Origin: Thermoanaerobaculia bacterium | Lineage (GTDB): Bacteria; Acidobacteriota; Thermoanaerobaculia; Multivoradales; Multivoraceae | NCBI GenBank assembly: GCA_022823665.1 | Contig: JAJEHN010000032.1 | Span: 1 to 64,000 of the forward strand | DNA length: 64,000 nt | Direction: 5' to 3' | Shown here: positions 7,437 through 11,503 of the stretch, in pieces | How positions within the stretch are numbered: the stretch's first letter is position 1 | Layout: every line of letters begins with the position of its first letter | Program-made: the position numbers and the translations under genes | The notes under the pieces: model-generated | Seen by the model: the letters and a program-made list of their open reading frames with translations, nothing else | Told to the model about the DNA's origin: nothing | Databases searched by the model: none

Positions 7437-8261
7437 CTACCTCTGACACCGCGGGCAGTAGTACGTGCTGCGATTCGAGAGACTCACGCGACTGATGCTC
7501 GCCCCGCAGCCGACCGGGCACGGCTCGCCTTCGCGGCCGTAGACATCGAGAGAGACCTGGAAGTAGCCCGAGTTGCCCTCGCCGTCGGCGAAGTCGTTGA
7601 GGGTCGTGCCGCCCTGCTCGATCGCCTCGGCGAGCACCGCGCGCACCGCCTGAGCGAGAACGTCGAACCGACGTCGCGCGATCCGCGCCACGGACCGGCG
7701 CGGGTGGATGCCGGAGCGGTAGAGCGCCTCCGACGCGTAGATGTTCCCGACGCCGACGACGACCGAAGCGTCCATCAGGAAGTTCTTGACCGGGGCCGTC
7801 CGGCCGCGGGCCAGGCCGGCGAGACGGACGCCGTCGAACCCGGCCGACAGCGGTTCCACGCCGAGATGGCGGAAGTGCCGGTCGCCGTCCAGAGTCTCCG
7901 TCGACGCGACGAAAGCCATGCCGAAGCGCCGTGGATCGCGGAACCGCAGGCGGCGGCCGGAAGCGAGATCGAAGCCCAGGTGTTCATGGTCCACGAGCGG
8001 CGCCGTTCGATCGACCAGGGTGAGCCGGCCGCTCATTCCGAGATGCACGGCAAGAGTCTCGCCGCCCGAGGCGTCGATCAGGAGGTACTTCGCGCGACGC
8101 CGCAGGCCGACGACCTCCCGGCCTTCCAGGCGGCGCAGCCGGCGCTCGCAGAGCGGCTCGCGCAGAGTCGGGAAGTGGACGCGAACGGTCTCGAAGCGAT
8201 CGCCCAGAAGCGGCCGTTCCAGGCTCCGGCGAAGAACCTCGACTTCAGGCAGTTCCGGCAC
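7437..8261 (-). CDS. mutM: Formamidopyrimidine-DNA glycosylase (Fpg/MutM)
   Basis: 274 residues with a GTG start placing P-E-L-P-E-V-E directly after the initiator. The N-terminal proline, exposed after methionine removal, is the catalytic residue and E3 the partner acid. The C-terminal zinc finger C-P-V-G-C ... C-P-R-C is intact, as is the H2TH region with V-G-V-G-N-I-Y-A. The enzyme excises 8-oxoguanine and formamidopyrimidines and nicks the strand. The upstream extension of the frame was rejected because it is unlike the family and overlaps holA. The GTG lies 1 bp after the holA stop, making this the last gene of the rlmH-dksA-like-holA-fpg operon. Confidence 0.95.
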   Translation of the reverse strand: MPELPEVEVLRRSLERPLLGDRFETVRVHFPTLREPLCERRLRRLEGREVVGLRRRAKYLLIDASGGETLAVHLGMSGRLTLVDRTAPLVDHEHLGFDLASGRRLRFRDPRRFGMAFVASTETLDGDRHFRHLGVEPLSAGFDGVRLAGLARGRTAPVKNFLMDASVVVGVGNIYASEALYRSGIHPRRSVARIARRRFDVLAQAVRAVLAEAIEQGGTTLNDFADGEGNSGYFQVSLDVYGREGEPCPVGCGASISRVSLSNRSTYYCPRCQR

Positions 8262-8262
8262 G

Positions 8263-9753
8263 TCAGCCGGCGCGACGGCCCGGCGGGCCTCCCCCGGCAA
8301 CCGCCAGGACCAGGGCCTCGAGCGCGGCGTCCTCTTCGCCGCTGCCACCCCGCAGGCGAATCTCTGTCTCGAGGACCTTCCAGGGAAGCTCACCCATCGC
8401 CGCAACAGCCTCCGGACTGCGACGGGCCATCGCCGCCTTGTAGAGGTTGAACAGAGGCCACGGGCTGGGCTTCTTCGTCGCACCTGGCCAGTCCGCCATC
8501 AGTTTCGGCAACACCCGGGCCTTGAAGCCGTTGTAGTTCCTCGCTTCCGGCAGACCGTGAGCCATGGCGAGGCCGTGGACGGCGGCCAACTGCTGACAGC
8601 GGCCGGCCAGAAGGCTCAGGAACCGGAACCGCTCGCCCTTTCGGTCTGCCGCACTGTCGAAGTAGCGTCGAAGCGCCGCCACTGCCGCGCCAGGCTTCTG
8701 GGCATCCATCGCATTGAAGACATCCCACACGTCCTGTTCGCCCCGGTCCACCACCGACTCTTCCACCGTGGCGCGGTCGATCCGGCGGCCGCCCTCCGGC
8801 ATGCCGGCGGCAATCTTCCGATACTCGGCGGCGAAGCGTGCAGCCGAGGCCTCATCCGCCTCGCCGGCGCCCCAGCCCTCCTTCCGCAACGTACGGCGCG
8901 CCAGCTCCTGAGCCGCGGCCCGGTCGATCTGCACGCCCGTCTCCCGCTCCAACTCGGCCAGGACCGGGTCGAGGCCTGTGGCCTTGCCACTGCGGTCGAG
9001 GCCGAGCTCCCCGACCTCGAAAGCCGATTTCCGGCCAAGAAGACGGCTGACGAGGGGATGCTTGCGGTCGACACTGCGTTCGGCGAACACCAGGGCGTGG
9101 CCTTCCGGCAGGCCGCCTCCCGAGGCCCGGTCGAGTTCCGCAAGGTTGCTTGTCGACCAACCGGTCAGATCTTCCGCCCGCGCCGCCTCCAGCAGCGCCG
9201 AAAGCCCCTTCGCCAGTTGAACCCGCTCCTTCTTCGGCCGGCCACGGCGACCGCCCTTGCGCTGGCTCTTTCCACCCGCCAGAGCCGACTCGGGCAGCGC
9301 GGCGATCGCCTCCTCGGCGGCCCCGCTAGCCGGGTCGATTCCAAACACCCGCAGCGTCTGAAGAAGCGGACCTGCCGCCCTTCTCTCGGCCGTGGAGAGT
9401 CCCGCACCGGCCACACCACCCAGGCCGTAGTCATCGCCAAGAATCGCGGCCGCCTCGTCGATGAGATCAGCCGCGGCATCCCTGTCGGCAAGCTCCGCGC
9501 TCGCGACCACCAACGCGACCTTGGCCGGCTCGAACAGGGAGAACGTGAACAGATCGGCGAGGATCGACCCCAGTTCCGCGCCGGCCGCTCCCTTGTGAAC
9601 CGCCACATCGCAGCCGGCCGCTGCGGCCAAGGCCTCCGCAATCCGGGTCGCCTCCCGCGTGGCCAGCACCTGCTCACCGATCACCAGGTAGAGCGGCTGG
9701 CGGTCGCCGCCTTCGATTCGCTCGATGGCGGCGTCGATTTCGGGCGCTTTCAC
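8263..9753 (-). CDS. holA: DNA polymerase III delta subunit (HolA), enlarged
   Basis: 496 residues from a GTG that overlaps the preceding stop as GTGA; typical HolA is nearer 340. The N-terminal clamp-loader fold is recognisable (P-L-Y-L-V-I-G-E-Q, then a D-L-F-T-F-S-L-F-E strand-turn), as are the C-terminal helical collar segments (N-G-F-K-A-R-V, P-W-P-L-F-N-L-Y-K-A). The excess length lies in the middle, around a basic patch (K-S-Q-R-K-G-G-R-R-G-R-P-K-K) and about 100 further residues. The protein would open the beta sliding clamp as part of the clamp loader. The identification rests on overall pattern rather than a single diagnostic motif. Confidence 0.78.
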   Translation of the reverse strand: MKAPEIDAAIERIEGGDRQPLYLVIGEQVLATREATRIAEALAAAAGCDVAVHKGAAGAELGSILADLFTFSLFEPAKVALVVASAELADRDAAADLIDEAAAILGDDYGLGGVAGAGLSTAERRAAGPLLQTLRVFGIDPASGAAEEAIAALPESALAGGKSQRKGGRRGRPKKERVQLAKGLSALLEAARAEDLTGWSTSNLAELDRASGGGLPEGHALVFAERSVDRKHPLVSRLLGRKSAFEVGELGLDRSGKATGLDPVLAELERETGVQIDRAAAQELARRTLRKEGWGAGEADEASAARFAAEYRKIAAGMPEGGRRIDRATVEESVVDRGEQDVWDVFNAMDAQKPGAAVAALRRYFDSAADRKGERFRFLSLLAGRCQQLAAVHGLAMAHGLPEARNYNGFKARVLPKLMADWPGATKKPSPWPLFNLYKAAMARRSPEAVAAMGELPWKVLETEIRLRGGSGEEDAALEALVLAVAGGGPPGRRAG

Positions 9754-11009
9754 TCGTCTGCGGGGAGCCGGCCCTTCTCTTCGAGTTCCTGACAGTCGAT
9801 GCAGTAGGGCGCCCACGGCACCGCCTCCAGCCTGGCGCGGCCCAGCTCGTTGCTGCAGTGGACGCAGATGCCGAAGGTGCCGTCGTCCAGCCGGGCCGTC
9901 GCTTCGACGATCCGGTTGAGCAGGATGCCGTCGCTGTCCGAGAGCGAGAAGTTCAACTCCCGGCTGTAGGCGTGATTCGCCCGGTCGACCAGGTCCTCCG
10001 CGCCCTCGCCGGTAGACGCCTTGAGGCCGGCGGTGAGATCGCGGTTGTAGCGGCCGAAGAGCTCCCGCCGCTTCTCTTCGAGCCGTTCCCGCACCCAGTC
10101 GAAGTCGACCTCCGTGTTCCTTCTCCGGGCGCCCGGACCTCCATCGCCATTGGCACGCTGCGGCCGAAGCAGAAGCGTCGGCGGCTTTCTCGGCTGCGGT
10201 TTCTTGCGTGCGGCCTTCTTCCGGACGGGCGGCCTCTTCGCCGGCTTCTTCGCGGATTCGACCTGGACTTCTTCGGGCGGCGCCGCCACCTGCTCGGCCG
10301 CCTTGTCCGCGGCCGCCTTCTCGGCGGCCTCCGCCTTCGCCACCAGCTTCTCCGCCGACGCGGCGGCCCGAGCGGCATCCCTGGCGGCGGCCTTCGCCGC
10401 TTGCGCAGCCTTCGCGGCCTTCTCTGAGGCCGCCGCCCTGGAGGCGGAGGTTCGGGCCAGCTTTCGGGCGGCAACGCCCTTGGCGGAAGCATCCTTCGCG
10501 GCCGCCTGCGCCGCGGACTTGCGATCAGCCAGGACCTTCGCGGCCCTGGCTGCCGCACTGCCGGTCGTAGCCGCCAGCCGGCCGGACTGCGCGGCTGCCT
10601 TCTTCCGGGCGGCCGCTTCTTCCCGGGCCTTGGCCGCGGCTTCGGCAGCCTTGGTCGACGCTGCCCGTTCAGCAACCGCCGTCCGCTCGGCCTTCTTCGC
10701 CGCGGCACGCCGCGCCGACGCCTCCTTCTCGGCGGCGGCGGCGGCCTCCTTCCTGGTCGCGGCGGTCTTTCCGGCCCTGGCCGCGGCCGCGGCGCCGGCT
10801 TTCTCTTCCCGGGCCGCCTTCTGTGCCGCTGCCTTCTTCTCCGACGCTGCCTTCGCAGCCCGATCCGCCGTCGCGGCCTTGCGGTCCGCCGCGGCCTTCG
10901 CCTTCCTGGCCGAGGCGCGGGCCGCCGTCAACTCTCGGGCCGCGGCCGCTGCCGCTTCCTTGAGGTCGTTCGTTCCGTCGGTTCGAGAAGCCTCGTCCGC
11001 GCTTGCCAC
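9750..11009 (-). CDS. DksA/TraR-type zinc-finger protein with long histone-H1-like Ala/Lys/Arg-rich N-terminus
   Basis: 419 residues. The C-terminal 120 or so form a DksA/TraR unit: a helical hairpin, then a four-cysteine finger C382-x2-C385 ... C403-x2-C406. Canonical proteins of this family are only about 70-150 residues. Residues 15-240 are almost entirely Ala, Lys, Arg, Glu and Ser, resembling histone H1 or bacterial H1-like tails, and are followed by a Pro/Lys-rich basic linker. DksA-family proteins bind the RNA polymerase secondary channel; the tail suggests DNA binding, but both roles are inferred here. The start at 11009 is favoured because a GGAGGG lies about 6 nt upstream; a GTG at 11024 is possible. 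The 3' end overlaps holA. Confidence 0.83.
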   Translation of the reverse strand: MASADEASRTDGTNDLKEAAAAAARELTAARASARKAKAAADRKAATADRAAKAASEKKAAAQKAAREEKAGAAAAARAGKTAATRKEAAAAAEKEASARRAAAKKAERTAVAERAASTKAAEAAAKAREEAAARKKAAAQSGRLAATTGSAAARAAKVLADRKSAAQAAAKDASAKGVAARKLARTSASRAAASEKAAKAAQAAKAAARDAARAAASAEKLVAKAEAAEKAAADKAAEQVAAPPEEVQVESAKKPAKRPPVRKKAARKKPQPRKPPTLLLRPQRANGDGGPGARRRNTEVDFDWVRERLEEKRRELFGRYNRDLTAGLKASTGEGAEDLVDRANHAYSRELNFSLSDSDGILLNRIVEATARLDDGTFGICVHCSNELGRARLEAVPWAPYCIDCQELEEKGRLPADE

Positions 11010-11029
11010 CTGTTCCCTCCGCACAAGGC

Positions 11030-11503
11030 TCAGTAAAACGGGCGCCGATGATAGTTGATTCCCTCGAGGATGGTGAACGCTCTGTAAATCTGCTCATAGA
11101 GAGTCAGTCGGGCGAGTTCGTGAGCGAGCGTGAGCGGCCCCAGAGAGAGCCGGAAACGGCACGAACTCACGAGGTTGCGGTCGAGTCCCAGGTCCGAGCC
11201 CACGATCCACGCAACAGGGCGTTGCCACTCCGAGCGCAACCGCCTCACCTCGGTCGCGAGGCCGGTCGAGCTCAGGCGCCGCCCCGTCCGATCGAGACAG
11301 ACCGTCCAGGCGTCGGCCGGCAGGGCGGAACGGATCGCCTTCCCTTCGAGCCGCAGTCGAGTCCGGTCGTCGCCGCGGGCGGGGCGAACGACGAGTTCGC
11401 GCACCGGCGCGAACCTCTCGATCCTCCGCCGGTAGTCGCCGCAGAGTGCCTCCCAGGGTTCGCGGCGGCGACCCACCCAGACGACCGCGATCTCGAACGC
11501 CAC
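11030..11503 (-). CDS. rlmH: 23S rRNA (pseudouridine1915-N3)-methyltransferase RlmH
   Basis: 157 residues from GTG, almost exactly the usual size of this SPOUT methyltransferase. Diagnostic parts are the N-terminal strand A-V-V-W-V-G, the knot region W-I-V-G-S-D-L-G-L, the segment L-S-L-G-P-L-T-L-A-H-E-L, and the ending Y-H-R-R-P-F-Y. It uses SAM to methylate pseudouridine 1915 in helix 69 of 23S rRNA. The longer upstream frame was discarded because homology begins at this GTG and the extension would run through the divergent hydrolase gene. It heads the operon that continues with the DksA-like gene 20 bp downstream. Confidence 0.95.
   Translation of the reverse strand: MAFEIAVVWVGRRREPWEALCGDYRRRIERFAPVRELVVRPARGDDRTRLRLEGKAIRSALPADAWTVCLDRTGRRLSSTGLATEVRRLRSEWQRPVAWIVGSDLGLDRNLVSSCRFRLSLGPLTLAHELARLTLYEQIYRAFTILEGINYHRRPFY

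Follow-up and report, generated by a model that had tools for sequence, protein, structure and literature searches.

The window, a 64,000-nucleotide stretch of contig JAJEHN010000032.1 from a Thermoanaerobaculia bacterium (assembly GCA_022823665.1), encodes a protein of the DksA/TraR family (PF01258; DksA sensu lato) in which the DksA-type head is preceded by a long, selectively maintained extension. Across the genus this extension is an Ala-rich, mixed-charge sequence whose length differs between species in whole heptads, whereas its counterparts in sister genera are Lys-rich and poor in acidic residues. We tentatively propose, with somewhat less than even confidence, that the protein may be a secondary-channel regulator of RNA polymerase that is tethered to the nucleoid through a disordered basic hinge and a predicted helical rod.

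Gene structure and genomic context

The gene, its neighbors, and the parts of its product are arranged as follows.

7437 to 8270, minus strand: fpg (formamidopyrimidine-DNA glycosylase), identified by three Pfam domains; downstream of the dksA-like gene.
8263 to 9753, minus strand: probable holA, for which the NCBIfam score is below the family cut-off (50.7 of 80 bits).
9750 to 11009, minus strand: dksA-like gene with a long N-terminal extension, GTG start, 419 codons.
9753 to 10130, minus strand: head, a DksA-type coiled coil (tip D339xxD342xA344) and C4 zinc finger (C382, C385, C403, and C406).
10131 to 10316, minus strand: hinge, residues 232 to 293, predicted to be disordered from about residue 242.
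10317 to 10961, minus strand: Ala-rich mixed-charge rod, residues 17 to 231, with a 14-residue repeat and predicted helix.
11030 to 11503, minus strand: rlmH (PF02590, E-value 1.1e-34; synteny), directly upstream, 20 nt from the dksA-like GTG.

The boundaries given for the dksA-like ORF in an earlier note on this DNA are exact, with the stop at 9750 and the GTG at 11009. An alternative in-frame GTG at 11024 would give a 424-aa reading, but the Shine-Dalgarno-like GGAGG sits ahead of the GTG at 11009 instead, and such a word is also found at the matching GTG of named loci from the genus wherever that GTG is among the starts listed. The operon proposed in the same note is likewise borne out by rlmH upstream and fpg downstream. 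Its holA member would be an ORF of 496 aa, whose GTG overlaps the dksA-like stop (GTGA); this ORF has no Pfam match, and the sole support for its identity is the sub-cutoff NCBIfam match. In a profile search of the window's genome, the dksA-like protein is the sole match to PF01258. The genome also has a single RelA/SpoT-domain match, and the HU family is matched three times.

The head is of the DksA type and lacks most basic residues of ppGpp site 2

The DksA/TraR zinc finger named in the earlier note is readily recovered. The zf-dskA_traR family (PF01258) matches residues 382 to 417 of the 424-aa reading (E-value 6.4e-9; 36.1 bits against a cut-off of 24.9) and is the only Pfam domain in the protein. 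The four zinc ligands, with the spacing seen in Escherichia coli, are kept in all 21 proteins of the genus. The tip residues D339, D342, and A344 are likewise kept in these 21 proteins and in all 15 rows of alignment A1, and form the DxxDxA sequence that we take to be the defining motif of the DksA coiled-coil tip. PDB matches also place the head with DksA, as does a Foldseek structure comparison, with E-values of 8.5e-5 to 7.7e-4 against 4ijj, 7khi, 1tjl, 5vsw, and 6ptg. Thus, by zinc finger, tip, and fold, the protein belongs to the DksA/TraR family. The NCBIfam DksA models match below their cut-offs, and with 59.7 bits against a curated cut-off of 115.5 for TIGR02420 we do not file the protein as a DksA equivalog.

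PMC7676912 lists R91, K98, R129, and K139 of E. coli DksA as ppGpp site-2 residues and reports that the R129A and K98A variants retain polymerase binding yet fail to support the binding of ppGpp at site 2. At three of these four positions the basic residue is replaced in the genus: the R91 site is S in 20 proteins and G in one, the R129 site is V in 21 of 21, and the K139 site is Q in 21 of 21. The K98 site, which is R throughout (21 of 21), is the sole basic site-2 position retained. The window protein reads S, R, V, and Q at these sites, a combination that does not match a ppGpp-responsive site 2. Separately, two tailed heads from family f3 (L088:4252-4626 and L090:4480-4854) retain only one of the four zinc cysteines, the other three having been lost.

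The extension is H1-like in sister genera but not in the window's genus

The extension comprises 293 of the 419 residues (about 70%). It was correctly described in the earlier note as more than half of the protein. It lies N-terminal to the head, and the "tail" of that note is the front of the protein. Its composition in the window protein is 40% Ala, 23% Lys+Arg, and 11% Asp+Glu, with a net charge of +0.12 per residue, which falls short of a polycation with a strong net positive charge and few acidic residues. The genus as a whole is similar (38-42% Ala, 21-26% Lys+Arg, 10-14% Asp+Glu, and +0.08 to +0.14 per residue). In contrast, the tails of sister genera g2 to g4 are Lys-rich, with 0-4% Asp+Glu and +0.29 to +0.35 per residue. 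Compositions for L082 to L084 cover the whole open frame, including residues upstream of the chosen start, and figures for L085 to L092, which contain upstream frame, were excluded from the comparison.

Sequence periodicity also separates the two groups. Class-wise self-similarity peaks at lags of 14, 28, and 42 residues in all four genus proteins analyzed, whereas a lag-5 peak is found in all three sister-genus proteins. AlphaFold2 models the window protein with helices at residues 3 to 126 and 135 to 241, followed by a low-confidence hinge (about 242 to 302) and the DksA head (mean pLDDT 71.9, pTM 0.35); the helix is interrupted at 127 to 134, where longer relatives carry an insertion. The corresponding model of a sister-genus protein (10 alignment rows) has almost no helix, with block pLDDT values of 33 to 52 over residues 1 to 230. 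The helical prediction is to be read with the caveat that AlphaFold2 readily turns Ala-rich sequence into helix and that the window alignment is shallow (21 rows).

The description "histone-H1-like" therefore suits the acid-poor, predicted disordered tails of the sister genera and, within the window protein, a short basic Pro/Lys/Arg segment of the hinge (about residues 254 to 275), which is accompanied by a PTLLLRP motif conserved across the genus. It does not suit the extension of the window's genus, with its higher acidic content, 14-residue period, and predicted helix. For this reason we consider it improbable that the window protein is a classical H1 fusion, wherein a disordered polycation compacts DNA, as in the published protein DdbA. 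Tails of this sort do occur on the syntenic gene in g2 to g4 and in family f3, but the per-residue net charge in the window's genus is about one-third of that in the sister genera.

The rod changes length in whole heptads

In the window protein, charge and Ala recur with periods of 3.5 and 7 residues rather than 3.6. The charge periods of 3.5 and 7 are shared by the G005 protein; the longer rods of G015 and G018 also have charge periods of 2.8 and 4.67, and the period of 7 is only marginal in G018. When the rod is set in a frame of 14 residues, Ala fills 82% of phase 3 and 85% of phase 6, where basic residues do not exceed 2%; at phase 8 basic residues account for 71%. Ala seams run along phases 3, 6, and 10. 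Salt bridges spaced at i+4 show no significant excess in the window protein (z 1.3).

Rod lengths measured between two fixed anchors in 21 species of the genus take the values 120, 155, 162, 197, 211, and 267, and every one of the 21 equals 1 modulo 7. The six lengths require a safe minimum of five changes (a tree of the flanks gives 10, a count made unsafe by recombination), and the chance that five independent changes would all be multiples of 7 is about (1/7)^5. The hinge, wherein indels of 1, 2, 3, 5, 6, and 10 residues occur, follows no such rule. Plain crossing-over between 14-residue repeats is insufficient to explain the rod lengths, because some differ by 7 or 35 residues, which are not multiples of 14. 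Tandem Repeats Finder returned short, weak arrays and no 21- or 42-bp array, which excludes a nucleotide tandem repeat as the source of the 14-residue period and places that period at the protein level.

These features raise the possibility, doubtful on balance yet substantial, that the rod serves as a spacer or for self-association, as an Ala-core coiled coil through which the regulator dimerizes or bundles while binding little DNA. The 3.5- and 7-residue periods, the Ala seams, the whole-heptad length changes, and the mixed charge would all fit such an arrangement. However, large hydrophobic residues, which would stabilize a coiled coil, make up at most 16% of any phase of the 14-residue frame, a strongly basic hinge is retained beside the rod, and the sister-genus tails in the same place are plain polycations.

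No match to the rod was found among PDB sequences at E-values up to 0.1. A second copy of the extension was not found in the genome among the 150 of 1197 candidates that were scored. A plasmid collection gave 15 records, in each of which less than 80% of the query was covered, and among the matches listed the similarity is to the head only (residues 318 to 406).

The extension is conserved in the genus and under purifying selection

Conservation of the extension among relatives, which the earlier note had put forward as a check, is clear. Matches to the head occur in all 21 genus genomes (81-100% identity), and all 24 genomes of the window's family, namely these 21 and three from sister genera, have an ortholog with a long extension. 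A long in-frame extension in 21 of 21 congeneric genomes rules out an assembly or annotation error.

Pooled dN/dS values are 0.27 for the rod (201 of 210 pairs used), 0.38 for the hinge (178 pairs), and 0.13 for the head (208 pairs), and rod values against each of four relatives taken singly are 0.16 to 0.24. Thus, the extension is under purifying selection. A chance low-complexity ORF is rejected on the basis of dN/dS and the heptad register. A related view, that the extension has drifted as low-complexity sequence without a specific role in a GC-rich genome, could draw on its Ala/Lys/Arg-rich composition, the high GC content at all codon positions, and the differences in length between species. 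We regard this view as very unlikely given the same dN/dS values, the six lengths in one heptad register, and the failure to find a second copy among the candidates scored.

The extension was probably added to an rlmH-linked dksA gene

In family f3, a long extension is present in seven of eight genomes; the match in the eighth (G036) is no more than about 300 bases from the end of a contig, and its frame may be cut. A class-wide search gave matches in 142 of 148 genomes, and outside families f1 and f3 most of the frames listed are short. The long frames of G131, G138, G143, G097, G096, G064, and G106 were read, and an Ala/Lys extension was found in none of the seven; these frames were rejected as extensions and look like out-of-frame upstream sequence. 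G047, where the match is partial and lies at the edge of a contig (317-aa frame), was left out of this reading.

The best named relatives are Acidobacteriota bins labeled Thermoanaerobaculia, Holophagales, or plain Acidobacteriota, along with one Candidatus Multivorans thiocomprendens; several of these bins presumably derive from sponges. Of 80 named Acidobacteriota loci, which are not independent of our genome set because many are the same contigs, 76 have rlmH on the same strand upstream of dksA. The distance from the rlmH match to the head is 171 bp or less in 50 of these 76 and 560 to 1350 bp in the other 26. Since rlmH-linked dksA genes mostly have no tail, untailed is their common state, and the extension is most simply read from these sequences as a lineage-specific addition. 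Family f1 is not monophyletic in a tree of RlmH and head proteins, and the tail may have been gained once and later lost or may have been gained several times.

Several other loci are of note. The gene of L069 (G008) is a mosaic, joining a G015-like rod to a zinc-finger half that is nearly identical to that of the G000 group, and reflects either recombination or a chimeric bin. L172 comes from a bin whose placement is unclear; here a distant DksA head bears a separate Lys-rich tail, and the surroundings give no match to rlmH. Elsewhere in the order, ORFs from other families (L093:875-2353, L094:3707-4822, L096:3-1211, and L098:253-1215) fuse a SpoIIE-type phosphatase domain with a DksA/TraR-type zinc finger. 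PF07228 and PF01258 both match in all four ORFs scanned, with PF01258 below its cut-off in L096, and an unscanned ORF of L099 resembles these fusions by appearance.

A possible nucleoid tether for a polymerase regulator

We consider nucleoid tethering the likeliest role of the extension, ahead of rod self-association, its main rival. The head (about residues 294 to 419) would enter the secondary channel of RNA polymerase and affect transcription without ppGpp at site 2, while the net-positive rod and the strongly basic hinge would bind DNA nonspecifically and hold the regulator at the nucleoid. Tethering is favored by the net charge, the basic hinge, the sister-genus tails, and the precedent of DdbA; counted against it is that the window rod, at +27 over 217 residues, is nearly balanced in charge and much weaker than the sister tails. 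The rival draws its strength from the heptad register and the Ala seams. By analogy with DdbA, the coupling of nucleoid binding to transcription control that the earlier note had suggested may be kept as the leading hypothesis.

The polylysine H1-like tails of the sister genera probably serve as the same kind of DNA-binding tether. In the window's genus, a disordered tail would have been replaced by a rod that keeps its helical register, possibly because the Ala seams allow rods to pair. At 1.5 angstrom per residue, the predicted rod would be roughly 32 nm long in the window protein (about 215 residues) and 55 nm long in G015 (365 residues). A fuller scenario, on the unlikely side when taken as a whole, concerns a clade of uncultured Acidobacteriota. 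In this scenario, a disordered H1-like tail on the only DksA/TraR zinc-finger protein detected would have become a rigid heptad-register rod, with length evolving in whole heptads, so that a polymerase regulator independent of ppGpp site 2 would sit on a charged rod of 30 to 55 nm that links RNA polymerase to the nucleoid as a tether or bridge.

Comparison with known systems

E. coli DksA (1TJL, 5VSW, and 7KHI) likewise has a coiled coil with a DxxDxA tip and a CxxC-x17-CxxC zinc finger, but its 151-residue chain carries no such N-terminal extension, and R91, R129, and K139 of its site 2 are replaced in the window protein. The untailed rlmH-linked DksA proteins of other Acidobacteriota have the same head in the same place after rlmH, without the long extension. 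The literature searched yielded no paper joining DksA with Acidobacteriota and none on the rod form.

The closest parallel in layout is DdbA (SCO2075) of Streptomyces coelicolor, which, as described in PMC9043899 and PMC11942623, has the same domain order, with an N-terminal DNA-binding H1-like domain and a C-terminal DksA-like part. DdbA, compared here by description rather than by sequence, comes from another phylum, and the N terminus in the window's genus differs in being a mixed-charge, heptad-register predicted helix. The H1-plus-DksA layout is thus already known in kind, and the new part is the rod form and its Acidobacteriota setting. Here the layout known from Streptomyces reappears outside its phylum, on a conserved gene linked to rlmH, and the sister genera and the window's genus have what are predicted to be two physically different solutions, a disordered polycation or a charged helical rod. 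The two groups form a natural comparison through which one could ask what these extensions contribute to a polymerase regulator, and whether a DksA can function without the ppGpp site-2 contacts.
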